Notes under the pieces: generated by a model
Told to the model about the DNA's origin: nothing
The model's input: the letters and a program-made list of their open reading frames with translations, nothing else
Database searches by the model: none
Position numbers and translations under genes: made by a program
Part shown: positions 47,257-58,681 of the stretch, one piece after another
Layout: each line of letters begins with the position of its first letter
How positions within the stretch are numbered: position 1 is the first letter of the stretch
Source: Flavobacteriaceae bacterium GF1
GTDB lineage: Bacteria > Bacteroidota > Bacteroidia > Flavobacteriales > Flavobacteriaceae
Assembly (NCBI GenBank): GCA_009797885.1
Contig: WNKP01000013.1
Coordinates: 62,001 to 126,000, forward strand
Length of the DNA stretch: 64,000 nucleotides
Direction of reading: 5' to 3'

Positions 47257-48045
47257 TCATATTTCTTTAAAACTTTTAAGTAATACGGAGAATTCTCGAG
47301 GATACTCACATAATTCAAGAAAAGTTAAATAATCCCTTTCGACATCAATATCATCGTTAGCTATTTCAAAATTGTTGATTAAGGAATTAACAGAAGTATC
47401 TTTCGGTATAGTGAGGTGCATTATGGTCTCTGTTGACCCATAGGAATCAATGTTTTCTACAATAGGGAGAATACTACCCATAAAAAACAACTCTTTCAGA
47501 ACATCTACTTTTTCTCTACTGTAATAATTTTGAATTCTATAGGATTCTGAAAAATACGATTCATAAAAATTCAATATTACCTTAGTGGAGGAGCATTGGA
47601 ATACGTTTAAAAAACATAAATTCTTTTTATATGGTTCAAATTCATTCGGTAATTCAGGAAAAATAATGGATGAAAGTTCCTTTTTAACTTTCTCTAAAAA
47701 AATAAAGGATATATTGGAAGCATTTTGAAACTCTTTGCAGTACTTTAACCTAAAGTCATAATAGACAAAATCAAAGCCTTTTTCGACCAGGCTCTTAAAC
47801 GCAAAAACCTTTACATCAGTTAAAACAACTTCCTCATTTGCGAGCATTTCTAAATCCGTAAACACATGGTCATAGGGAATATTTAATTTAACTATTAAAT
47901 ATTTACCATAAAAATCGGTCATCAGGAAAACCTTCTTGTGTGACTGTTTTAATTTGAGAAAACTTAAATAAAGATTGCTAACCGATTGAAGTATTAGTGT
48001 GGTATCTTTTATTTTTTTAGTCCAAAAAATATGAGTGGGATACAT
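47257..48045 (-). CDS. DUF6734-like protein, divergent glycosyltransferase-like
   Basis: A 262-residue protein whose layout parallels the 295-residue protein at 50984-51871: IFWTKKI near the start corresponds to QSFWSKPF, then LKLKQSHKKVFLMTDFYGKYL and LNIPYDHVFTDLE correspond to LQLKKFYDRVELITDSNGK and LIGLPYDTVRCDLD. The metal DxD of that protein is replaced by YYDFRLKY, so catalysis is doubtful. Its start overlaps the preceding gene by 29 bases. Last gene of the minus-strand operon; AT-rich like its neighbours. Confidence 0.7.
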   Translation of the reverse strand: MYPTHIFWTKKIKDTTLILQSVSNLYLSFLKLKQSHKKVFLMTDFYGKYLIVKLNIPYDHVFTDLEMLANEEVVLTDVKVFAFKSLVEKGFDFVYYDFRLKYCKEFQNASNISFIFLEKVKKELSSIIFPELPNEFEPYKKNLCFLNVFQCSSTKVILNFYESYFSESYRIQNYYSREKVDVLKELFFMGSILPIVENIDSYGSTETIMHLTIPKDTSVNSLINNFEIANDDIDVERDYLTFLELCEYPREFSVLLKSFKEI

Positions 48046-49645
48046 CGATTTTGGTTTTTATTTTTTTCTCATCCAACCGAAATAAAACAATTTTACTATT
48101 GTTTCCTTTATTTGGATTAAACTGTATTTTAAATTTTCTATTTTGATAATCACTGGAACTAACATCTTTATCATTAGCTTCACTTGTACGTTTTTGGTTT
48201 AAAAATCTTAGTGAATCGCTATGCCCAATGGAATCATTACACAAATGAAATGGGGCCAAATATTGATTTAAACCTATTTTTCTTAATCTAAGCGTTATCT
48301 CTGTATCCTCAAAACCATAATTTTCAATACCTAAATGATACCCACCTATTTTTTTAAAGTCAGAAGACTTTATCATTATTCTACCAAATGATCCTACGGA
48401 TGACAGTAAGGAGGGTCTTAAAAAGAAATTCTTTCTTTTCTTGATTACGGAAAGACAATAGGTTATGTAACTTTCACTTATATAATTGTCGGCATCTATG
48501 TTAATCAAATACAGTCCGTTCGACAAAAAATGAATGTAATTCTTAGGTAAGGTACGATGATAAAACTGCTGATCATAGTTTTTATAATAAAATAAAATAC
48601 CATCTTCAATGGCCATTTTAAACCAATTTTGTTTAAAAAGAAAGTCTTCCAATCCATCTTCTGAATTATAATCCAAAAGATTTATATTGATTATTCCCTT
48701 GAACTTATAGGCTATTTTGATATTGTATTTTAAAGTTCTTGAGATATGGTCAAATCTATTCATGACTACCGTACAGAGACTTATTACGGCAGTACCATTT
48801 TTATTTAAAACCATATTTTTAAAAAGTCTATCTATATTGGAAATCTCTGGTGATTGATTTGAATCATTACGTGTTTTGTGTACTGTTTCTTTATGGGAAT
48901 GATTGTTTTTGACACTTGTGAGTTTTGATTTCCCCTTGAATATCATGTTACAGGAACAGTTTTGCGACAGAACCGTTATATACAGTAGATAGTCCTGTAT
49001 TATCAAAGTGGGACTTGAAAGCTGTTTCGAAGATTTTGCGACATTCAAACATTTTAAAAAATTATTGACATAGACATTTTTCAAATCCAAATTGTTGAAC
49101 CCTATTATTTTTGTGTCATATGCATACTCATGATTGTTAACAAACTCATCCACATACTCTCCTTTAATGTCCATTAACCAAGAAAAGGTTTTTAATTCTC
49201 CATGAGTGATTTTAGGAGATTTGGTTACGTTCGATGCATGCGCGATGCTATATTTTGAAGCCACTATAACATCTTGATCATTATCAAAATGATAAATCCC
49301 CTTAATTGTTTCTTTCGAAAGGGATATATCCCAATCCAAATACAAAAAAGGCACGGATTGTTTGGCCAAACACAACATTTTGCGTTCAACAAATTCTATT
49401 TCATTTGAGTTAATGAATTCCAGGTCCAAAGAAATTCTGTCAATAGGCAATCCCTTAAAAAACCTACTTGTTGCAACATCAGTAAACAATTCAATTTCAA
49501 AATCAAAACTCTTAAAATCGTAAATCAATTTTTTAATACTGTTCACGGACATTTCCAACCTGTCATCAAAACCCGAATCAGCGTCATGGTTATCAACTTG
49601 ATTTGAAACATCAATTATGGAGAAACAAAAAACGATTTTTTTCAT
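48017..49645 (-). CDS. two-domain glycosyltransferase
   Basis: A 542-residue protein. The N-terminal about 270 residues look like the DUF6734-type fold with FLYLDWDISL (Asp104, Asp106). The C-terminal half is a GT-A family 2/galactosyltransferase-like domain with ISLCTVVMNR, NIDADNYIS (metal-binding DAD) and GGYHLGIENYGFEDTEITLRL, the GGxxxGxxxxGxED acceptor motif of beta-galactosyl/GalNAc transferases. Possible acceptors are the secreted peptide of this island or another protein. Overlaps the upstream gene by four bases. Confidence 0.8.
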   Translation of the reverse strand: MKKIVFCFSIIDVSNQVDNHDADSGFDDRLEMSVNSIKKLIYDFKSFDFEIELFTDVATSRFFKGLPIDRISLDLEFINSNEIEFVERKMLCLAKQSVPFLYLDWDISLSKETIKGIYHFDNDQDVIVASKYSIAHASNVTKSPKITHGELKTFSWLMDIKGEYVDEFVNNHEYAYDTKIIGFNNLDLKNVYVNNFLKCLNVAKSSKQLSSPTLIIQDYLLYITVLSQNCSCNMIFKGKSKLTSVKNNHSHKETVHKTRNDSNQSPEISNIDRLFKNMVLNKNGTAVISLCTVVMNRFDHISRTLKYNIKIAYKFKGIININLLDYNSEDGLEDFLFKQNWFKMAIEDGILFYYKNYDQQFYHRTLPKNYIHFLSNGLYLINIDADNYISESYITYCLSVIKKRKNFFLRPSLLSSVGSFGRIMIKSSDFKKIGGYHLGIENYGFEDTEITLRLRKIGLNQYLAPFHLCNDSIGHSDSLRFLNQKRTSEANDKDVSSSDYQNRKFKIQFNPNKGNNSKIVLFRLDEKKIKTKIDVSHSYFLD

Positions 49646-50982
49646 TTAGCAGTTTTTTTAACCATCAAAATGTTTCTATCAACAAGCTTCTCTATGAACT
49701 CTCGGGTAGTATTGTACAATCTATTTTCTTCTTGTGAACTTGACAAAGAAAAATTTTCAGAGAAAGTTTTATAGTTTGTTTCAATTGAAGAGTTGGCCCG
49801 AAAGAGTTCCATTAGTCTTTTGTCCCAATCATTAAGGATGTATTCATAAATCCCGTTCTTTGAAAATGAAGAAACTACCATACAGTTCATAAAATTCGCA
49901 GTTGGCATTAAAAGTTGTTTGGGCGGAAAATTAATTTCGGTGTCCCATGCTGCATTTTGTGCCCAGCGCCACTGAGTGTCAATGATTTTAATGAAAGGCG
50001 ACAAGACTAAATCGAATCCAAAAAAATCTTGTTTTGAGGAATTAAAAAACAATTGTTTTTGCTTTTCATGAATTAATTCCCTTCTGAAATCCAGTTGCAT
50101 GTTTTCTGATTTGCAAAGTAAATTCCAACCTTCTTTTTCATAATCATATAATTCCTTAATCCTCCTATAGAGGTCTTCGGATAAATATTCCTCACATTGA
50201 CTTATAAAACCATTCAGACATTCTACATAATTATCCAATTTTGAGTTTGATAATTCTGTAAGGAGTTTGTTAATTTCTTTAGGGGAAATAATAAAGCGCA
50301 ATAAAAGAAATGTTCTTTTGAAAGGTTGGGAAAGAATATTTTCAGCAAACTCTCTATTTGTTTCACTACAACTTTTAGTGCTGTGGTTTACTTTGATTTT
50401 ATTCTTGTATTCGGGCTTTATTTCAGAAAACAATTCTGATAAATTCTTTGTATCATAACCGAAATCAACACTGAATTTTTTGAGTTCAATTGGTCGGCTC
50501 AAAAGAAATTCATGCAATTGCCTGTTAGGATTCATTTTGTAAATCCTAAGGAGCAATAAAAAATCCGACCTTAATTCATTTTTCCAATTATAATGTACTT
50601 CCGGCAAGGCCGGATTGTCCAACAATGCCTTATAACTACTTAGATTTAACCGATCATTTGGAAACCCATAGATTTTAAAGTCAAAATTTATGATATAGTT
50701 TTCCATTAATTGACATGACCAATGTTCCAGGCTTTCATTATTCAATATTTTGGATAAATGCAAAAAAGCATAGACTAAACTCAAATTGACCTTACAGTCA
50801 GTTGTGTCTACTATCAAACCTATTCTAGAATGTACAGAACATTTTTGAATAATTTTATTGGCAAGCACTTCACATTCTTCAGTTGTAAGTTTAAAATGAG
50901 TGATGTCCCCACATATAGTACTTACAAAATTTGATTGGTTGTAAGATGATTCAAGTTTTATTACAAGTTTTCCGAAATCCAA
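49642..50982 (-). CDS. unrecognised 446-residue protein of the peptide island
   Basis: I do not recognise a family. The protein is mostly helical in appearance, without signal peptide, membrane segment or metal-binding cysteine cluster. An aromatic, Trp-rich stretch near residue 345 (IDTQWRWAQNAAWDTEINFPP) may be a functional pocket. It is translationally coupled on both sides: one base after the DUF6734 gene and four bases overlapping the two-domain glycosyltransferase. A peptide-binding or modification role is possible but is inference from context only. Confidence 0.75.
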   Translation of the reverse strand: MDFGKLVIKLESSYNQSNFVSTICGDITHFKLTTEECEVLANKIIQKCSVHSRIGLIVDTTDCKVNLSLVYAFLHLSKILNNESLEHWSCQLMENYIINFDFKIYGFPNDRLNLSSYKALLDNPALPEVHYNWKNELRSDFLLLLRIYKMNPNRQLHEFLLSRPIELKKFSVDFGYDTKNLSELFSEIKPEYKNKIKVNHSTKSCSETNREFAENILSQPFKRTFLLLRFIISPKEINKLLTELSNSKLDNYVECLNGFISQCEEYLSEDLYRRIKELYDYEKEGWNLLCKSENMQLDFRRELIHEKQKQLFFNSSKQDFFGFDLVLSPFIKIIDTQWRWAQNAAWDTEINFPPKQLLMPTANFMNCMVVSSFSKNGIYEYILNDWDKRLMELFRANSSIETNYKTFSENFSLSSSQEENRLYNTTREFIEKLVDRNILMVKKTAK

Positions 50983-50983
50983 A

Positions 50984-51871
50984 CTAAAGGTGATTATCTT
51001 TTAAAAGTGACATAATTTTAAAATACGTTTCGGGATAATCAATCATTAATCTTGATTCCAACTGTTTTGAGATCAATTCGTACTGTTTATATTTTCCGAT
51101 TAAATGCATAAAATCAATTCTTGTGGGTATTTTTCTAAAATCGGCTAAACCAAGGAAGTCTTTATCCATATTCTCCAAGAGACAGTTGACTTCTTTTTTT
51201 AAGTCAGTGGCTAGTGAATAAAACAGATATTGTTCAAATATTATATTAAACGCCCCTACATTGATCGTTTCTAAATAGTTGTAATTCTCGTGAATAAATC
51301 GGAAAGCCTCTTTGGTAAAATCTTGGAAAAAACCAACGTCGGATCCTCCTAAAATTCCAGCGTTGTACATAACGATAGTTTCCGGATAACTATTCATGGT
51401 TTTAGGAAAATAGGCCAAGTTTTCATAGGCTTCTTCCATTGCCTCAATTACCCCTGTAGGGATGTCATAGTCAAAATTTTGAGCAACCAATCCGCCATTT
51501 AATAGTTGCTCTGGAAATTTTCTGTATATGAAAATATCGTTATCAACATGTAAAAAGGAATCTTTTTGTAATTGGTAAGCCTTTAATTTTCCAATAGCCC
51601 ACAAATCTTCATGATAATCAACCAATTCGTCCAAGTCACATCTAACAGTATCATAGGGTAGCCCTATTAATTCGACCAGTATTTTTTTTCCATTGCTATC
51701 GGTTATCAATTCTACACGATCGTAGAATTTTTTAAGCTGTAAACAGCTAAGGGCACATGAAAAATAGTAGTACTTTTTATCTAAGAAGCCACCTGTTTTT
51801 CTGTCGAGGGCGAATCCTTTTCCTTTTTTCATAAAAGGTTTTGACCAAAAGCTCTGTACAATTTTCACCAT
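50984..51871 (-). CDS. DUF6734-family glycosyltransferase-like protein
   Basis: A 295-residue protein matching the DUF6734 pattern as I know it: VKIVQSFWSKPF at the start, GGFLDKKYYYFSCALSCLQL, VELITDSNGK, and HVDNDIFIY with a DxD (Asp110, Asp112) suggesting a GT-A nucleotide-sugar site; YNAGILGG follows. First gene of the four-gene minus-strand operon that reads away from the peptide gene. Activity not established for the family. Confidence 0.8.
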   Translation of the reverse strand: MVKIVQSFWSKPFMKKGKGFALDRKTGGFLDKKYYYFSCALSCLQLKKFYDRVELITDSNGKKILVELIGLPYDTVRCDLDELVDYHEDLWAIGKLKAYQLQKDSFLHVDNDIFIYRKFPEQLLNGGLVAQNFDYDIPTGVIEAMEEAYENLAYFPKTMNSYPETIVMYNAGILGGSDVGFFQDFTKEAFRFIHENYNYLETINVGAFNIIFEQYLFYSLATDLKKEVNCLLENMDKDFLGLADFRKIPTRIDFMHLIGKYKQYELISKQLESRLMIDYPETYFKIMSLLKDNHL

Positions 51872-52014
51872 ATACTTTGTTGGTCCAAAAGATTACGCGA
51901 TGCATTTATCCATTTAGATAAAAACCGGTGAAATAAGAATACATCAAGAACGATTGTACAAATTTTTATGTTTTTCAAAGTAGACTTACTGGTAAGAATA
52001 ATAGTTATGAAACA

Positions 52015-52044
52015 AAATATGCGTACCAATTAATACGCATATTT
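52015..52044. terminator. strong hairpin between peptide gene and glycosyltransferase operon
   Basis: AAATATGCGTA (52015-52025) pairs perfectly with TACGCATATTT (52034-52044), loop CCAATTAA. Read on the minus strand it is followed by TTTTG, so it may end transcripts from the peptide side or act as a partial read-through attenuator. Both strands remain possible. The rest of 51872-52155 holds no gene I can see. Confidence 0.5.
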
Positions 52045-52155
52045 AATTTCACAAAAAGTGGTTTTTAATACCCTTCACATTAGTGTTCACTTAAAAAAAA
52101 ACTAATTTTCAGTTGTTTGCAATCAAGGTCTTTTTCATTATTGTAATCTAGGTAA

Positions 52156-52400
52156 TTAAATAGCTAACAACTGGTTTACAGGTGTTTTGTCGAGCCATGG
52201 TATTCCAGGTACCTATAGGATTTCGTAAATCGGCCGTTGCAATTTTTCAGCCATAATGCCTTACCATACAGTAAGTCGTGATGGCCGAATAGATTTGAAT
52301 CCTAACGGCATTTTCGGAGTTTCCCCAGAACGACTTGGCCCTAAGGTGCTGCCTGATCTATTTGAAGAACCGATCGACCTGCCATCTTTGTATATATAGC
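52156..52400 (-). pseudogene. decayed 3' end of an IS4-family transposase
   Basis: On the minus strand the frame reads RWQVDRFFK, stop, IRQHLRAKSFWGNSENAVRI then QIYSAITTYC. After a shift it reads YEIL, stop, VPGIPWLDKTPVNQLL and ends TAA at 52156. FFKWIKQHL-IK-FWG-SENAVRIQIY and LLDKTPVNQLL are the C-terminal hallmarks of Bacteroidetes DUF4372-containing IS4-family transposases. Two stops and a frameshift show it is dead. It separates the peptide gene from the glycosyltransferase operon. Confidence 0.88.
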
Positions 52401-52514
52401 ATGGGGATTTAGACCGGTCATCTTGGGCCAATTCAAATCGCTATGCATTAAAAAGGCATGAAACTTTCAGATGTACAATAATTTAAAAGAACTTTTAAAT
52501 AGTTTTAGTGGACA

Positions 52515-52703
52515 CTAGCAAGTAGCGTACCCTCCACCAATTTGTGAACATGGCACGAAGCTCACAAAACAACTACCCCAGGGTGACAAACAACGATATG
52601 TAGGGGGATTTCCGACTCCGCCTCCACTTCCTCCTTTACTACTTAGCAATTCCGCCATTTCGACGGATTCAAAATCTTCTAAACTTAACTTTTTTGATTT
52701 CAT
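52515..52703 (-). CDS. double-glycine-leader, four-cysteine secreted peptide precursor
   Basis: A 62-residue precursor. Leader residues 1-25 (KLSLEDFESVEMAELLSSKGG) have hydrophobic Phe11, Val14 and Leu19 at positions -15, -12 and -7 before Gly24-Gly25, the expected cut site for a C39 peptidase. The leader resembles the Bacteroidetes natural-product precursor type beginning KLSLEDF. The 37-residue core is glycine-rich at first, then has Cys38, Cys45, Cys52 and Cys62 (spacings 6, 6 and 9), ending in Cys. Divergent hlyD, C39-ABC and VKOR-thioredoxin genes fit export and disulfide formation. Activity (bacteriocin, signal or other) unknown. Confidence 0.85.
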   Translation of the reverse strand: MKSKKLSLEDFESVEMAELLSSKGGSGGGVGNPPTYRCLSPWGSCFVSFVPCSQIGGGYATC

Positions 52704-52735
52704 AGGATTTCTTTTATAAATTATGTAAGAAAATT

Positions 52736-52759
52736 AGTAATAATTATTTAATAATTACT
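52736..52759. promoter_or_regulatory. AT-rich imperfect dyad in the divergent promoter region
   Basis: AGTAAT (52736-52741) is mirrored by ATTACT (52754-52759) around an ATTATTTAAT core. It lies in the 81-base gap between the peptide gene and the export operon, so it could be a shared operator. No adjacent regulator gene is present. Confidence 0.4.
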
Positions 52760-52784
52760 CTTAATTTGTAAAAAAATTAGGTGG

Positions 52785-54062
52785 TTGAATACCTTTCATA
52801 GTAGTCATATCAATTCAATTATTGAAAAAAAGCCGAGCTGGTTAACCCGATATGGAATTAGTTCAATGTTACTGATTTTGATAATGATTTTATGTGCAGG
52901 ATGGTTCGTTAAATACCCAGAAACGATTTCAACCAAAGTTTACATTACAACACCCTTACCTCCTGTTGATGTCATAGCAAAATCAAATGGATCCATTGTT
53001 AAGCTATTTGGATACTCCAAAAATGATACCCTACAAAAAGGGACTCCGCTAATACTACTTCAAAATAATGCTTCTTTTGGGCAAATATTGGCACTTCAAG
53101 AAGAACTCCTGCAAAAGAAAACCCTTGTATCAAATACGGGTAAAAACATTGAAACAATAACTTGGCTAGATAGTTTAGGTAATATTCAGCCAATTTATAA
53201 CAAGTACGTTCTAAGTATTTTAAACTTCAATGATTATCAACAAAATAATCCGTATGGGAAAAGAATAGCTGAATTAGAAGAAATAATTTCAATTTCAAAT
53301 CGAGGAATAGACTATACAAAAGAATATATTAAAAATAGCAATAATGATTATGAGTTAGAAAATTTAGAACTGGAACGATTTAAAAAATTGTACGATAGAG
53401 GGGTTGTCTCCTTATCAGAATTGGAAAAAATACAACAGCAAGTGATCAGAAAAAAAATGCAATTTTCCAATGATAACAAAATACTGGTAAATGAAAAGAT
53501 TTCTATCGCACAACTTTCAAAAGAAATTTTAGAAATAAAAATTCTGAAAACGAACTTAGAAAAAGAGTTAAGTTTTCAATACCAAAGCATTAGAAATGAG
53601 CTTCAAAATCAGTTAGAAGAATGGTTGGATCTGTATTTGATAAAATCCCCTATAGAAGGAAGACCTTCTTACTTTGAAAATCTGAATACGGGAGATTTCA
53701 TAAATAATGGTCAACATCTGCTTACGGTAATACCAACAAAAGAACAAAGACTGTTCGCCAGAGGTGTAGTTTCATCCAAAAATCTGGGCAATGTACTTCC
53801 CGGAAACAAAGTCATATTAAAGCTTGATGCCTATCCGTATCAAGAATACGGGGCTATAAATGGATCAGTATCCAGAATTTCTGAAATTCCTTTCGATAAT
53901 GAATACAGCATAGATATAGCACTGACTAATAATCTCGAAACCAACTACAATAAAAAAATAGTCTTTAGACAACGTTTATCAGCTACGGCAGAAATAATTA
54001 CAGAGGAGAAAAGCATCCTTAGGCGATTATTCTTTCAAATAGAAAGTTTACTGAAAAACTAA
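52785..54062 (+). CDS. HlyD-family periplasmic adaptor of peptide exporter
   Basis: A 425-residue membrane-fusion protein: one N-terminal transmembrane segment (about 27-43), a lipoyl/barrel-sandwich half (PPVDVIAKSNGSIVKLF), a long coiled-coil hairpin (about 110-280), the second half (IKSPIEGRPSYFENLNTGDF) and a beta-barrel. It links the inner-membrane ABC exporter to an outer-membrane channel. The only plausible start is TTG 52785 (in-frame stop at 52752-52754), placed against an AGGTGG sequence. First gene of the export operon, four bases before the ABC gene. Confidence 0.92.
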   Translation: MNTFHSSHINSIIEKKPSWLTRYGISSMLLILIMILCAGWFVKYPETISTKVYITTPLPPVDVIAKSNGSIVKLFGYSKNDTLQKGTPLILLQNNASFGQILALQEELLQKKTLVSNTGKNIETITWLDSLGNIQPIYNKYVLSILNFNDYQQNNPYGKRIAELEEIISISNRGIDYTKEYIKNSNNDYELENLELERFKKLYDRGVVSLSELEKIQQQVIRKKMQFSNDNKILVNEKISIAQLSKEILEIKILKTNLEKELSFQYQSIRNELQNQLEEWLDLYLIKSPIEGRPSYFENLNTGDFINNGQHLLTVIPTKEQRLFARGVVSSKNLGNVLPGNKVILKLDAYPYQEYGAINGSVSRISEIPFDNEYSIDIALTNNLETNYNKKIVFRQRLSATAEIITEEKSILRRLFFQIESLLKN

Positions 54063-54065
54063 GCA

Positions 54066-56219
54066 ATGTCCAGTTTTAAGCTATACAAGCAACACGACAA
54101 AATGGACTGTGGCCCAACATGTCTAAAAATGATTGCAAGTTTTTATGGTAAGGAGATAGCTTTAAGTCGTTTAAGGGAACTATGTTATTTAAATCGTGAA
54201 GGTGTTTCCATAATGGGAATATCACATGCAGCAGAGAGTATTGGGTTTAGTTCAATAGGAACAAGAGTGGATTTAAGTACTTTAATGAACAAGGTGCCAC
54301 TGCCTTGCATTGTCCATTGGAGGTACAGTCATTTTGTGGTTGTTTACAAAACAAGTAAAACACATGTATTCATAGCTGATCCGGAAGAAGGGAAGAAAAA
54401 AATGCATGCAAAGGAATTTAAAAGAGAGTGGTGTAGCGACGAGAAAAGTGGTCTTGTTCTATTATTGGAGCCAACCCCCGCATTTTATGAAAATCAAGAA
54501 GACAACAGGGCGACATTTACCTATTTTTTGAAATACTTCTTGCCTCATAAAAATTTGATAATACAAATTTTTATGGCCATTATTTTTTCAAGTATAACGA
54601 GTTTACTAACTCCCTTCTTTACTCAATCCATAGTTGACATTGGCATACTGGGTAATAACCTAAAGTTCATTTATATCGTTTTACTTGCCCAATTCATGCT
54701 CACAATGGGGAATGTATTTATTTCATTTATGCAATCTTGGGTTTCTTTGCATTTGAGTCTTAGGGTAAGTCTTTCTTTTATTATCGGTTATTTATCAAAA
54801 CTCTTACAAATGCCATTCACCTTTTTTGAACAAAAGACGGTTGGCGATATAACTCAACGAATAACGGATAATTCTAGAATAGAACGTTTCTTAAATGACT
54901 CTATATTTTCCCTTCTGGTGTCGCTATTTAATTTTATCATGTATTCGGGTATATTGGCGTTCTACAATATCAAATTACTCTTCGTTTTTTTTATTGGAAA
55001 CACGATTTATGTTGTTTGGGTGCTGCTCTTTCTGAAGAAAAGAAGAGAGTTTGACAATGAGAATTTCAAAATTACAGCTCAGAGTGAAAATAAAATTCTT
55101 CAATTGTTCTTTGGTGCTCGTGAAATCATTTTGAACAACATCGAAAAAGAAAAAAGATGGGAATGGGAATATGTGAAGTCCAAAGAATACTACTTGGAAA
55201 AGAAAATACTTTATTGGGAAGAGCTCCAGGTCTCGGGTGGAACACTAATCAACACCCTATCCGGTCTGTTGATTAGCCTTTTTGTAGCGTTAGAGGTGAT
55301 AAATGGAAACATGACCTTGGGAATGATGTTGGCTGTTCAATTTATTATGGGGCAAATCCAGGTTCCATTGAGTTCCTTTATAGGAATAGTACATTCCTAT
55401 CAAGATGCTAGAATAAGCTTAGAAAGGCTGACAGAGGTCTTCAATTATACGCATGACAAAAATGCTGTTCTAACCGATGTTGATGAAAACAGTGATATCA
55501 CTATGAAAAATGTAACTTTTCAGTATGGCGGACCGAATTCTCCAAAAATACTAGATAACATAAATTTAACTATCCCGTCCAATAAGATTACCGCTATAGT
55601 TGGCAGCAGCGGAAGCGGCAAAACAACCATATTGAAATTACTTTTGAAATTATACCAACCCATTGAAGGTGATATTTTAATTGGAAAGAAAAAACTTAAA
55701 TATATTCAAGATTCATTTTGGAGGGATAACTGTGGTGTAGTAATGCAGGACAATTACATTTTTGACGATACCATCTTGAACAACATAATCTTGAAGAATT
55801 TAAATTCAATTGATTACGAAAGATTGGAGTATTCCGTTGATATTGCTAACATAAAGGATTGGATTGATTCATTGCCCTTAGGTTATTCCACAAAAATAGG
55901 TCTAGAAGGGGTTGGTCTAAGTGAGGGGCAAAAACAACGTTTGTTAATTGCCAGAGCAATATATAAGAATTCCAAGTATATCTTTTTAGATGAAGCAACA
56001 AATTCATTGGATGCTAAAAACGAAAAAATAATAATTGAGAAATTATCAAAAGCCATAAAGAACAAAACAGTAGTAATAATTGCCCACAGGCTAAGTACAA
56101 TTAAGTCTTCGGACCAAATAATCTTATTACATAAAGGAAAGATTGTTGAAAGTGGAAATCACGACGAGTTGATTAAAAATAAAGGTCATTATTATCAACT
56201 AGTTAATAGTCAGTTGTAA
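54066..56219 (+). CDS. C39 peptidase-containing ABC transporter (PCAT)
   Basis: A 717-residue bifunctional exporter. Residues 1-130 are a C39 protease: Gln9, catalytic Cys15 in DCGPTC, His89 in YSHFVV and Asp105 in IADPEEG. It removes the leader after Gly-Gly. The ABC membrane domain with six helices follows (about 160-450), then the ATPase with Walker A GSSGSGKTT, signature LSEGQKQRL and Walker B YIFLDEATNSLD. The intact catalytic triad supports processing of the adjacent peptide. The stop overlaps the next gene's ATG (TAATG). Confidence 0.95.
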   Translation: MSSFKLYKQHDKMDCGPTCLKMIASFYGKEIALSRLRELCYLNREGVSIMGISHAAESIGFSSIGTRVDLSTLMNKVPLPCIVHWRYSHFVVVYKTSKTHVFIADPEEGKKKMHAKEFKREWCSDEKSGLVLLLEPTPAFYENQEDNRATFTYFLKYFLPHKNLIIQIFMAIIFSSITSLLTPFFTQSIVDIGILGNNLKFIYIVLLAQFMLTMGNVFISFMQSWVSLHLSLRVSLSFIIGYLSKLLQMPFTFFEQKTVGDITQRITDNSRIERFLNDSIFSLLVSLFNFIMYSGILAFYNIKLLFVFFIGNTIYVVWVLLFLKKRREFDNENFKITAQSENKILQLFFGAREIILNNIEKEKRWEWEYVKSKEYYLEKKILYWEELQVSGGTLINTLSGLLISLFVALEVINGNMTLGMMLAVQFIMGQIQVPLSSFIGIVHSYQDARISLERLTEVFNYTHDKNAVLTDVDENSDITMKNVTFQYGGPNSPKILDNINLTIPSNKITAIVGSSGSGKTTILKLLLKLYQPIEGDILIGKKKLKYIQDSFWRDNCGVVMQDNYIFDDTILNNIILKNLNSIDYERLEYSVDIANIKDWIDSLPLGYSTKIGLEGVGLSEGQKQRLLIARAIYKNSKYIFLDEATNSLDAKNEKIIIEKLSKAIKNKTVVIIAHRLSTIKSSDQIILLHKGKIVESGNHDELIKNKGHYYQLVNSQL

Positions 56220-57823
56220 TGCTTTGGAAAGAAAAAAAACATCCTTTATCCAGTTGCATACATGAGCTGTTTAAACTAATTAATATCAAAGTGACATTTC
56301 ACACGTTGAACAAATCACTTTTGGAGCATCCTGATTTCCCTTCTCTGTATGCTGTTTCTGGAGTTTTGTCTTTTTTTTCAGTTAAAAACAAAGGTGTTAG
56401 GATATGTAAAGAAGAGCTAACCCAGGTAGAAACACCGTTTCTCGCTAAGGACAGGGAGGATAATTTAGTAATAGTTGATAAAATTGAAAATGATAAAATT
56501 AGTTTATACTCCCATTCTTCGGGATGGGAAACAACATCATTAAATGATTTCTTGACCTTATGGAACAATGATATTTTGATTTTACTCGATAGTAGTTCCT
56601 CTTTTCAAGAAGAGAATTATCACAAGAAAAAAAGGCGAGAAACTTTAGTAAAAATGAGAGTTTCTTTTTCACTTGTTTTGTTGTTCTTGTGCCTTTTTTT
56701 TACCGCATTTAAATTAAACACCATTCTTGGTGTATCATATTTAATTCTGAAGTCAATTGGATTTTATGTGTCATTATTGCTAGCCGCTAAATTGATCGAC
56801 AACAATATTGATTACGCATTTTGCCATATAACTCCAAAGATGGATTGCAATGCTGTGCTGGATTCTAAAGCATCAAAACTTACGAGTTGGCTTTCACTTA
56901 CAGATATAAGCTTAATTTATTATTCAGGATCATTAATTTGTCTGATGTTGATTGGCTTAACTGATAGGCACAACGTTTATGGGGGCTTGAATGTCCTGTT
57001 TTTACTATCTCTATTAGCATTACCAATTACTTTTCTGTCAATTTTTTATCAAGGTATCAAGTTAAAAAAATGGTGCTTTCTTTGTCTTGTTCTTGTTTTG
57101 ATTATGTGGTCTGAAGGAACTTTGGCATTTTATTATTATACAACTGCCAATTTTGCGACAATAGAAATTCAGGAGTTTTATATAACGGCCTTTATATTTT
57201 TTATGAGTGGTCTGTTATGGCTTTTTATTAGGGACACTTCAAACAATTTAGAAGACCGAAAGAAAATCAAATATGAGTATGAAAGACTAACAAATGACCT
57301 CATGATTTTTGAAGTTATTCAAAACAAACAGGATAAGTATGATTTAGATTTTAAGACAACGGAAATCCTGGTTGGAAGTTCAGAAGCCAAAAACAAACTC
57401 ACTATTGCCATAAATCCTTTTTGTGGAGCTTGCTCCAAAGATTTTATCCAAATATATAAATTGGTAAAAAAGCATCCTTTGTTTTGTTCAGTTCGAATGA
57501 TCTTTTACGTAGATGTTAAATCGAAATCTGAAGAATTGGAATTGTCCTTGAAACTAGTTGAAAATTATCTTTTTGACAGGGATGGGTTTTTAGAGGTCTT
57601 ATTTGTTTGGTTTTCAACTAAAAAAATTATCCAAAAATCGCATGTTTTGAAAGAGAATGCATCTTTAAGTTCTAAGTCTGCGAACATATTGGAGCATCAT
57701 TACAACTGGTTGGTCAATAATAAAATTAGATTTACCCCTACTATTTTTTTTAACGATAGATTACTATCCCAAACCTATTCCATCGATAAAATTGAGAAAA
57801 ATATTGACATTCATAATTGGTGA
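56219..57823 (+). CDS. VKOR-thioredoxin disulfide-forming membrane protein with inactive C39-like N-terminus
   Basis: A 534-residue protein in three parts. Residues 1-125 resemble a C39-like domain without the catalytic Cys-His pair. Residues about 145-335 are a vitamin K epoxide reductase-type membrane domain with the two cysteine pairs Cys202/Cys210 and Cys286/Cys289 (WCFLC). Residues about 380-534 are a thioredoxin/DsbA-like domain with CGAC (Cys402, Cys405) and a TPT cis-proline segment. The enzyme should make disulfides outside the cytoplasm and recycle electrons to quinone. Its translational coupling to the exporter points to the four-cysteine peptide as substrate. Confidence 0.93.
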   Translation: MLWKEKKHPLSSCIHELFKLINIKVTFHTLNKSLLEHPDFPSLYAVSGVLSFFSVKNKGVRICKEELTQVETPFLAKDREDNLVIVDKIENDKISLYSHSSGWETTSLNDFLTLWNNDILILLDSSSSFQEENYHKKKRRETLVKMRVSFSLVLLFLCLFFTAFKLNTILGVSYLILKSIGFYVSLLLAAKLIDNNIDYAFCHITPKMDCNAVLDSKASKLTSWLSLTDISLIYYSGSLICLMLIGLTDRHNVYGGLNVLFLLSLLALPITFLSIFYQGIKLKKWCFLCLVLVLIMWSEGTLAFYYYTTANFATIEIQEFYITAFIFFMSGLLWLFIRDTSNNLEDRKKIKYEYERLTNDLMIFEVIQNKQDKYDLDFKTTEILVGSSEAKNKLTIAINPFCGACSKDFIQIYKLVKKHPLFCSVRMIFYVDVKSKSEELELSLKLVENYLFDRDGFLEVLFVWFSTKKIIQKSHVLKENASLSSKSANILEHHYNWLVNNKIRFTPTIFFNDRLLSQTYSIDKIEKNIDIHNW

Positions 57824-57826
57824 ATT

Positions 57827-58681
57827 TCATCCCAAATATTTACTAATCTCCTTATGGATACCGTTATTGGTATTTCTCCACCATAAAAGAATTTCTTTTT
57901 GCTGTTTAATTAGTTTTTCCTTTTGGGACAATAGCAATACACACTTTTCATAACCTTCTTCCCAATTCCTGGCAAATAACCAAGGTGGTTTTTTGTCATA
58001 AACAAATGTTTCTTCAATCTCTCTATTGATCCCTACCACAATAGGTATAGCACCACATATCGAAGCCTCATATAGTCTGAAACAATCAAGCTTTTCTCCA
58101 CCTCTGCCGCATGGAACAAAAATGGAATCAAGATAGATACTTTTCATTTTTCCAATGTCTATATTATCCGAGAAAAAATTATTGGGAATCCTACGCATGC
58201 TTTCTAGCATATAACCTCTATCTTCTTTATACATATTCCCAACAAAACTCCAATTCAATCGCCTCTCAGAAATAGGCTTTATTTTAATTGTGCTGGAAAG
58301 ATGACCATTTAACATCCCGGTACCATACCCCAAGGGTATTAGTTTAATATTTGAGAAGTTCAAATATGAAGGGTGATAATGTTGTCTTAGTAATAAACAT
58401 GTATATTTTGCTAAATTCTGATAAACACTTCTAGTACCGTATTCATCTGATAAATGAACAATAATCTTAGGTTTTAAATGTTTAACTATTTTCAAAATTT
58501 CTTCATAGGTAATATAATTTGAAGAAAAAGCTAAAACAATATCAGATTCTTCTTTTTTTAAGAAAAAATTTAAATTCAACAATTGTTCAGTAGTAGATTC
58601 CATTGTTTCCATTCCTTGAAAAACTTCTTTACAGATGTAGTCCTTTTCCCAAGAAGCTTCTTTATGGTAAATCAAAGTCAT
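57827..58681 (-). CDS. exostosin-like (GT47-type) glycosyltransferase
   Basis: A 284-residue protein with a GT-B C-terminal half typical of exostosin-like enzymes: WSFVGNM, FVPCGRGGEKLDCFRLYEA and SICGAIPIVVG. The nucleotide-sugar site would be in that segment. No signal peptide. It converges on the VKOR gene with only three bases between. Shared AT-rich composition suggests it belongs to the same island, perhaps as a further sugar transferase. Acceptor unknown. Confidence 0.82.
   Translation of the reverse strand: MTLIYHKEASWEKDYICKEVFQGMETMESTTEQLLNLNFFLKKEESDIVLAFSSNYITYEEILKIVKHLKPKIIVHLSDEYGTRSVYQNLAKYTCLLLRQHYHPSYLNFSNIKLIPLGYGTGMLNGHLSSTIKIKPISERRLNWSFVGNMYKEDRGYMLESMRRIPNNFFSDNIDIGKMKSIYLDSIFVPCGRGGEKLDCFRLYEASICGAIPIVVGINREIEETFVYDKKPPWLFARNWEEGYEKCVLLLSQKEKLIKQQKEILLWWRNTNNGIHKEISKYLG

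Follow-up and report, generated by a model that had tools for sequence, protein, structure and literature searches.

The question raised by this locus is whether a cysteine-rich peptide, whose export and oxidation can be read from known protein families, is also glycosylated by enzymes encoded beside it. The locus is an island of nine open reading frames (ORFs) in a 64,000-nucleotide window of the Flavobacteriaceae bacterium GF1 genome (contig WNKP01000013.1, positions 62,001 to 126,000; G000:C4:62001-126000 in our numbering), a genome of 5.28 Mb in 62 contigs. All nine were recovered from the ORF list at the positions first assigned to them. The island probably makes a glycosylated, disulfide-bonded ribosomally synthesized and post-translationally modified peptide (RiPP). 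Glycosylation of this peptide was a guess in the original prediction and has now become the best-supported reading. It is backed by a predicted GT8-like fold with a DxD-type motif in the central enzyme, by a partner which looks like the RiPP recognition element (RRE) type and stands in trans or fused, and by the adjacency of peptides with a Gly-Gly (GG) leader; this support is genomic and structural, not chemical.

On the minus strand, the precursor gene is followed 643 bp downstream by four genes encoding proteins of 295, 446, 542 and 262 residues, which share the strand and overlap or abut (48017/48045, 49642/49645, 50982/50984). On the plus strand lie the genes for an HlyD adaptor, a C39-ABC exporter and a C39-like/VKOR/thioredoxin protein, and after them a minus-strand gene for a 284-residue protein. 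The four genes had been described as an operon of DUF6734/GT-A-like proteins with an unrecognised partner. The four genes stand, as does a partner outside the Pfam families, and the composition is corrected: the operon consists of a single true DUF6734, a partner, a protein with a GT2/GT7C-like half and a possible DUF6734-like half, and a degenerate DUF6734 copy which lacks the DxD. The predicted four-cysteine GG-leader peptide was found as an ORF of 62 residues, composed of a 25-residue leader ending in GG and a 37-residue core with four cysteines in CX6C and CX9C spacing. It matched no Pfam or NCBIfam family, and no second GG-leader ORF of at least 40 residues was seen in the 643 bp between precursor and DUF6734 (51872-52514).

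The 295-residue protein belongs to DUF6734 (PF20508, E 2e-94). In an alignment of 84 of the 88 sequences at hand (the near-duplicates L054, L086 and L126 were left out, as was L110), K95, H108-D110-D112 (HxDxD), G172, G175, G176, H256 and K262 are invariant. The AlphaFold2 model has a mean predicted local distance difference test score (pLDDT) of 95.5 and a predicted template modelling score of 0.93. Foldseek returned 199 PDB chains for it at E up to 0.001, and the top 50 of these comprise 49 glycosyltransferases and one nucleotidyltransferase. The structural aligner ranked glycogenin first (Z 13.4 over 203 residues, 3.6 A), with LgtC at Z 11.9. The DUF6734 profile found no glycosyltransferase among PDB sequences (best E 0.12); the likeness is visible by fold alone. 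DUF6734 is predicted from its model to have the GT-A glycosyltransferase fold, nearest to the GT8 enzyme glycogenin. The GT-A fold, the DxD and the late His/Lys appear to be shared with glycogenin and LgtC, whereas a PDB sequence match is lacking and the predicted acceptor is a secreted peptide. In GT8 enzymes the DxD and a late histidine are the metal ligands, a role that would fall here to H108xD110xD112 and H256.

The 446-residue protein looks like the partner of DUF6734, and in its model the C-terminal half looks like a leader-binding domain of the RRE type. It matched no Pfam family, DUF2063 included. Its relatives directly follow DUF6734 in L084, L097, L114 and L117, and these four score 24 to 17 bits against the profile of the fused extensions (E 6e-8 to 1.6e-5 for a set of 50 sequences). 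In the 81 loci examined, 90 DUF6734 proteins reach 250 residues or more; 46 of them are extended at the C-terminus by more than 90 residues and are called fused, and 43 have at most 310 residues. Thirty-nine standalone DUF6734 genes have a following same-strand ORF of at least 110 residues within 250 bp. Twenty of these ORFs encode long proteins (419-682 residues) of one family, several encode short ones (about 180-250 residues), and a few are unrelated (a glycogen synthase in L068, a methyltransferase in L089). Profile comparison relates the final 170 residues of the partners to the fused extension (hhalign probability 94.8, E 5e-8). The first profile comparisons of fused extensions with partners, made on a small set, failed, and a larger set succeeded.

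The model of the partner was built from 22 sequences, and the blocks of residues 211-446 mostly have a pLDDT of 76-94 with dips to 57-73. Residues 205-443 match TglHI (8hi7; Z 13.9, 195 residues, 4.4 A; Foldseek E 0.011) and residues 202-444 match NGO1945 (3dee; Z 13.4, 197 residues, 4.8 A; Foldseek E 6.8e-4). The next-ranked rows reach Z 9.3 and are alpha/alpha barrels placed on the low-confidence N-terminal half, which appears alpha/alpha-toroid-like. In the accessible text of PMC12452194, both TglI and NGO1945 count as RiPP partner proteins, and NGO1945 is said to contain an RRE domain. These DUF2063/PME partners of multinuclear non-heme iron-dependent oxidases would thus share both the modelled fold of the C-terminal half and the RiPP partner role. 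They differ from the present protein, which is paired with a glycosyltransferase, has no DUF2063 Pfam match and carries the extra toroid-like N-terminal part.

Recurrence beside GG-leader peptides carries the argument beyond this island. In the genome collection, 299 pattern-matched stretches encode DUF6734 relatives, and the 81 loci comprise 79 from this collection (out of the best 80 of 299 confirmed stretches) and two of this genome. GG-leader ORFs with at least two cysteines in the core were counted by a fixed leader rule according to their distance from DUF6734. Out to 1 kb the count was 29 (157.1 kb of sequence), followed by 15 at 1-2 kb (151.5 kb), 7 at 2-3 kb (146.1 kb), 3 at 3-4 kb (145.3 kb) and 11 at 4-10 kb (769.0 kb), so that the density within 1 kb is about 13 times that at 4-10 kb. 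After dereplication at 70% (65 clusters), 24 remained in 125.7 kb within 1 kb and 9 in 601.7 kb at 4-10 kb. The precursor of the island fails the fixed rule at position -4 and is outside the 29. Under a looser rule three marks were scored, a Cys-rich GG peptide within 3.5 kb and a C39-ABC or a VKOR protein within 8 kb; they were found in 31, 27 and 18 of the 65 clusters, respectively. At least one mark is present in 44 clusters, namely in 26 of the 28 fused ones and in 18 of the 37 standalone ones; the two fused clusters without any mark, L110 and L121, sit on contigs under 5 kb. A leader motif, acidic-x-M/L-K/R-x-I/V-(x)-GG, fits 22 of the 80 collected leader entries, and the cores behind it hold 0 to 8 cysteines. 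By eye, VKOR-bearing loci hold Cys-rich cores and the low-Cys cores (L061, L064, L066, L090 and L099) lie in loci without VKOR, the flank of L064 being short.

At the level of genomes, PF20508 occurs in 10 of the order's 246 genomes searched and in 16 of 395 from the phylum, counting this genome and a weaker-scoring group. The 13 genomes with strong DUF6734 matches (about 62 Mb) hold 43 Peptidase_C39 and 12 VKOR matches. Within 10 kb of a C39 match lie 7 of the 15 strong DUF6734 places, where about 0.2 would be expected by even spread; the 15 include one broken gene and two places near contig ends, and the C39 matches include C39-like parts of VKOR proteins. This genome has a second locus (G000:C62) with DUF6734, a 208-residue partner, a four-cysteine GG peptide and a VKOR-type oxidase, and no ABC gene was seen there in the 20 kb covered. 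Because this combination recurs at the second locus and similar sets occur in other genomes, the gene set of the island is not a matter of chance.

Export and disulfide formation follow, as predicted, from the protein families. The exporter carries Peptidase_C39, ABC_membrane and ABC_tran; read by eye, its C39 domain keeps the motifs DCGPTC, HFVV and DP and is presumably active. The adaptor matches HlyD_3, and its TIGR01843 match has E 8.3e-24 yet lies below the cut-off of that model. The proposed VKOR-thioredoxin disulfide enzyme matches VKOR, a C39-like domain just over the cut-off (1.2e-4), and Thioredoxin_4 below it (E 6.5e-4, 20.4 bits against 23.2). Its motifs WCFLC in the VKOR part and FCGAC in the thioredoxin part are kept, again by eye. 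The plan agrees with that of bacteroidetocins, which according to the accessible text of PMC6671954 are four-cysteine GG-leader peptides of Bacteroidota accompanied by a C39-ABC and a thiol oxidoreductase; all three features are found in the island.

Taken as a pathway, the C-terminal RRE-type domain of the partner would bind the leader of the 62-residue precursor, and the partnered DUF6734 would then transfer a sugar from a nucleotide sugar onto a side chain of the core, probably aided by a divalent metal that the DxD and the late histidine bind. The cores of L061 and L066 contain no cysteine, so cysteine is not the universal acceptor if those peptides are substrates. Since some DUF6734-linked cores are thus free of cysteine, serine, threonine or tyrosine would be likelier than cysteine as a family rule. 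Extension of the glycan by the 542-residue glycosyltransferase may follow and is the least secure step. The C39 ABC exporter with the HlyD adaptor would, from what is known of these families, cleave the peptide behind the GG and export it, and up to two disulfides would be made by the VKOR-thioredoxin protein. The default guess is that the peptide is antibacterial.

A first alternative is that the peptide undergoes no more than cleavage, oxidation and export, like a bacteroidetocin, and that the glycosyltransferase operon works on a surface glycan or some other substrate and lies nearby by chance or through shared regulation. Bacteroidetocins have the same set of peptide, C39-ABC and thiol oxidoreductase, and the word 'glycosyl' is absent from the accessible text of PMC6671954; the glycosyltransferase operon and the exporter are also divergently transcribed. 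Export operons that consistently lack the glycosyltransferase genes had been named in the original prediction as evidence against it, and a weak form of this was observed. In this genome a VKOR protein with an adjacent Cys-rich GG peptide (C11; L131:8320-10208) and the two C39-exporter loci of C44 and C22 are without DUF6734; the glycosyltransferase is therefore regarded as an optional tailoring module. A surface-glycan enzyme would not predict the adjacency of DUF6734 and GG peptides, the marks in 26 of 28 fused clusters, the second locus or the RRE-type partner, and we consider this explanation rather unlikely. Improbable, in our judgement, is an action of DUF6734 and its partner on another cluster substrate, such as a non-ribosomal peptide or a carrier-bound precursor, with the RRE-like domain binding something else than GG leaders. 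It would account for L052, L055 and L059, in which non-ribosomal peptide synthetase (NRPS) genes adjoin DUF6734 and a LanC-type partner and no ribosomal precursor is visible; there is no NRPS domain in the nine proteins of the island, and most loci of the fused type have GG peptides, an exporter or an oxidase.

DUF6734 might also modify the peptide by other chemistry, either a different nucleotide-activated transfer or a sugar on serine or threonine that acts as leaving group, with the LanC-like domain of the partner aiding ring closure. The 20 long partners form one family, four of the five scanned match LANC_like, and a profile of these and the 446-residue protein matches LANCL1 (1.1e-21) and LicM2 (1.1e-13). 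Two loci, L062 and L101, are LanB/LanC clusters with DUF6734, and the pairing of a glycosyltransferase with a LanC fold calls for an explanation. The CHG of LanC zinc sites is found in none of the 20 long partners, as against both true LanC proteins beside DUF6734 in the same set of loci, and it is absent from the 446-residue partner. No LANC_like match was obtained for the short partners of L084 and L011 or the fused extension of L035. This explanation, too, is held to be improbable.

Several observations weigh against glycosylation of the peptide by the partnered DUF6734. The precursor has serine at leader position -4 instead of the usual hydrophobic residue, its leader lacks the commonest leader motif, and its gene stands 643 bp from that of DUF6734. 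None of the three marks is present in 21 of the 65 clusters (19 standalone and 2 fused), among them the NRPS loci L052 and L055; two such clusters adjoin trehalose synthase genes, L068 a glycogen synthase gene as well. In the 13 genomes, DUF6734 lies within 10 kb at only 3 of the 12 VKOR places. A divergent DUF6734 copy (L045:7405-10752, 167 bits) lies two genes away from one for a phage tail tape-measure protein (PHROG E 2.4e-20), probably in a prophage. For the partner, the mean pLDDT is only 72.9, the fused-extension profile misses the 446-residue protein (E 0.35, for 50 sequences), and the profile of long LanC-type partners gives it 18.0 bits with a bias of 17.6. Because these profile matches are weak, its link to the fused extensions goes through intermediates and structure. 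Against PDB sequences the fused-extension profile found no significant RRE, the best relevant match being a PqqD-type chaperone at E 0.43. By the aligner's own warning, a best Z of about 14 can also be reached by mostly helical models that have no true relative, and the TglI/NGO1945 match is therefore read together with the RiPP setting.

Glycocins are among the closest known systems. SunS is a GT2 enzyme. Sublancin, glycocin F and ThgA share with the island a Cys-rich GG-leader peptide, a C39 exporter, thiol-disulfide enzymes and a dedicated glycosyltransferase (PMC12457901, accessible text). They use SunS/GccA-type glycosyltransferases and Firmicute thiol-disulfide proteins in place of the GT8-like DUF6734, the RRE-type partner and the VKOR-thioredoxin oxidase, which is of another kind than the Bdb/Gcc proteins. 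The description of the island as a glycocin-like system built from different enzymes holds for three features, the GG-leader Cys-rich precursor (judged by cysteine spacing alone), the C39 peptidase ABC exporter and the thiol-disulfide enzyme; membership is not established, and the main glycosyltransferase is of another kind. Bacteroidetocins differ in that no modifying glycosyltransferase is mentioned in the accessible text of PMC6671954, whereas a glycosyltransferase module is attached here.

Bacteroidales clusters with radical SAM proteins, LanC-like proteins without zinc ligands and GG leaders are described in the accessible text of PMC10352776, in which BGC3 has a glycosyltransferase and 'DUF' does not occur. 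Such LanC-like proteins and GG leaders likewise stand beside DUF6734 loci, and radical SAM is not among the nine proteins of the island; neither are LanB, LanM or a LanC with zinc site. The fusion of a glycosyltransferase with an RRE is as such already known, from RRE domains fused to PF00535 enzymes (PMC12710340). The idea is shared and the glycosyltransferase family is other, DUF6734 not being among the DUF mentions in the accessible text of that paper. The name DUF6734 occurred in none of the papers searched, a collection outside which subscription papers lie, and the titles and abstract openings listed showed no pairing of such a glycosyltransferase with an RRE-type partner in RiPPs.

If the glycosylation reading is true, PF20508 would gain a function and the unrecognised partner family a name, glycosylation would be tied to RRE-guided RiPP chemistry in Bacteroidota, and a set of precursors would become directly testable. 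We give even chances to the wider proposition that DUF6734 and its RRE-type partner, separate or fused, are a general peptide-glycosylating module of Bacteroidota for disulfide-rich, Cys-free and lanthionine-type peptides, perhaps also non-ribosomal ones. This would be a so far unreported way of making glycosylated RiPPs, with a glycogenin-like enzyme directed to its substrate by a leader-binding domain like those that accompany iron-oxidase RiPP enzymes. Such a module could also explain some of the zinc-ligand-free LanC-like proteins of the Bacteroidales clusters.

Table 1. Genes of the island, with positions in the window and the basis of each assignment.
Feature	Length (aa)	Position	Strand	Basis and remarks
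Precursor peptide	62	52515..52703	-	ORF, leader/core reading; leader 52629-52703, core 52518-52628
DUF6734, predicted GT8-like glycosyltransferase	295	50984..51871	-	PF20508 E 2e-94, alignment, AlphaFold2 model, fold matches
Partner protein	446	49642..50982	-	Relatives after DUF6734, profile links, structure; TTG start in ORF list
Glycosyltransferase	542	48017..49645	-	Glyco_transf_7C 26.1 bits
Degenerate DUF6734 copy	262	47257..48045	-	PF20508 26.4 bits (below cut-off), alignment
HlyD-family adaptor	425	52785..54062	+	HlyD_3 E 2.8e-10
C39 peptidase-containing ABC exporter	717	54066..56219	+	Peptidase_C39 1.9e-36, ABC_membrane, ABC_tran
C39-like + VKOR + thioredoxin disulfide oxidase	534	56219..57823	+	VKOR 1.4e-11
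RXYLT1_C/GT47-like protein	284	57827..58681	-	Sub-threshold family matches; tie to system uncertain

The remaining proteins on the glycosyltransferase side are less clearly assigned (Table 1). The C-terminal half of the 542-residue protein is GT2/GT7C-like, its Glyco_transf_7C score standing above the cut-off of 23, and its N-terminal half is possibly DUF6734-like with a DxD, as judged from sequence. The DUF6734 profile gives it only 11.4 bits over residues 32-256, and BLASTP gives 6e-6 to 8e-4 against weak DUF6734 relatives in L047-L050. Its relatives occur in L056 (491 bp from DUF6734), L071 (overlapping DUF6734) and L105 (8 kb away), and no glycosyltransferase was matched among PDB sequences up to E 1. 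The 262-residue protein lies just under the PF20508 cut-off of 27, scores 26.3 bits with the family profile over residues 26-83 and has lost the DxD in the alignment; it is possibly a pseudoenzyme or scaffold. The gene of the predicted exostosin-like transferase is present. Its label is weak because RXYLT1_C (21.2 bits) is below the cut-off of 27 and Exostosin_GT47 has E 0.21. Neither the 262- nor the 284-residue protein has a relative in the other 80 DUF6734 loci (phmmer E 1e-3), and the latter is therefore a doubtful member of the system.

DUF6734 was also found in other settings. In L068:7798-12560 and L108:7775-10921 it adjoins a trehalose synthase/phosphatase gene, and in L068 a glycogen synthase of family PF05693 (E 2.8e-111) follows it directly; this is possibly a bacterial glycogenin-like priming pair. 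L101:9068-17771 encodes LanB, LanC, a luciferase-like monooxygenase, two DUF6734 proteins and three GG peptides with 8-10 cysteines. A CmlA-type hydroxylase gene lies near DUF6734 in L056, and a tryptophan halogenase and further glycosyltransferases lie beside it in L071. In L091 DUF6734 is paired with a radical SAM/SPASM gene; L092, on a contig labelled as a Lachnospiraceae metagenome-assembled genome, has the same gene order as this Bacteroidales contig, probably through a binning error. A second DUF6734 group (L046-L050, about 73-87 bits) belongs to a conserved gene block that also encodes proteins of roughly 900, 1140 and 600 residues, and was set aside as different. In one genome the DUF6734 gene is broken by stops (L044:9630-10220).

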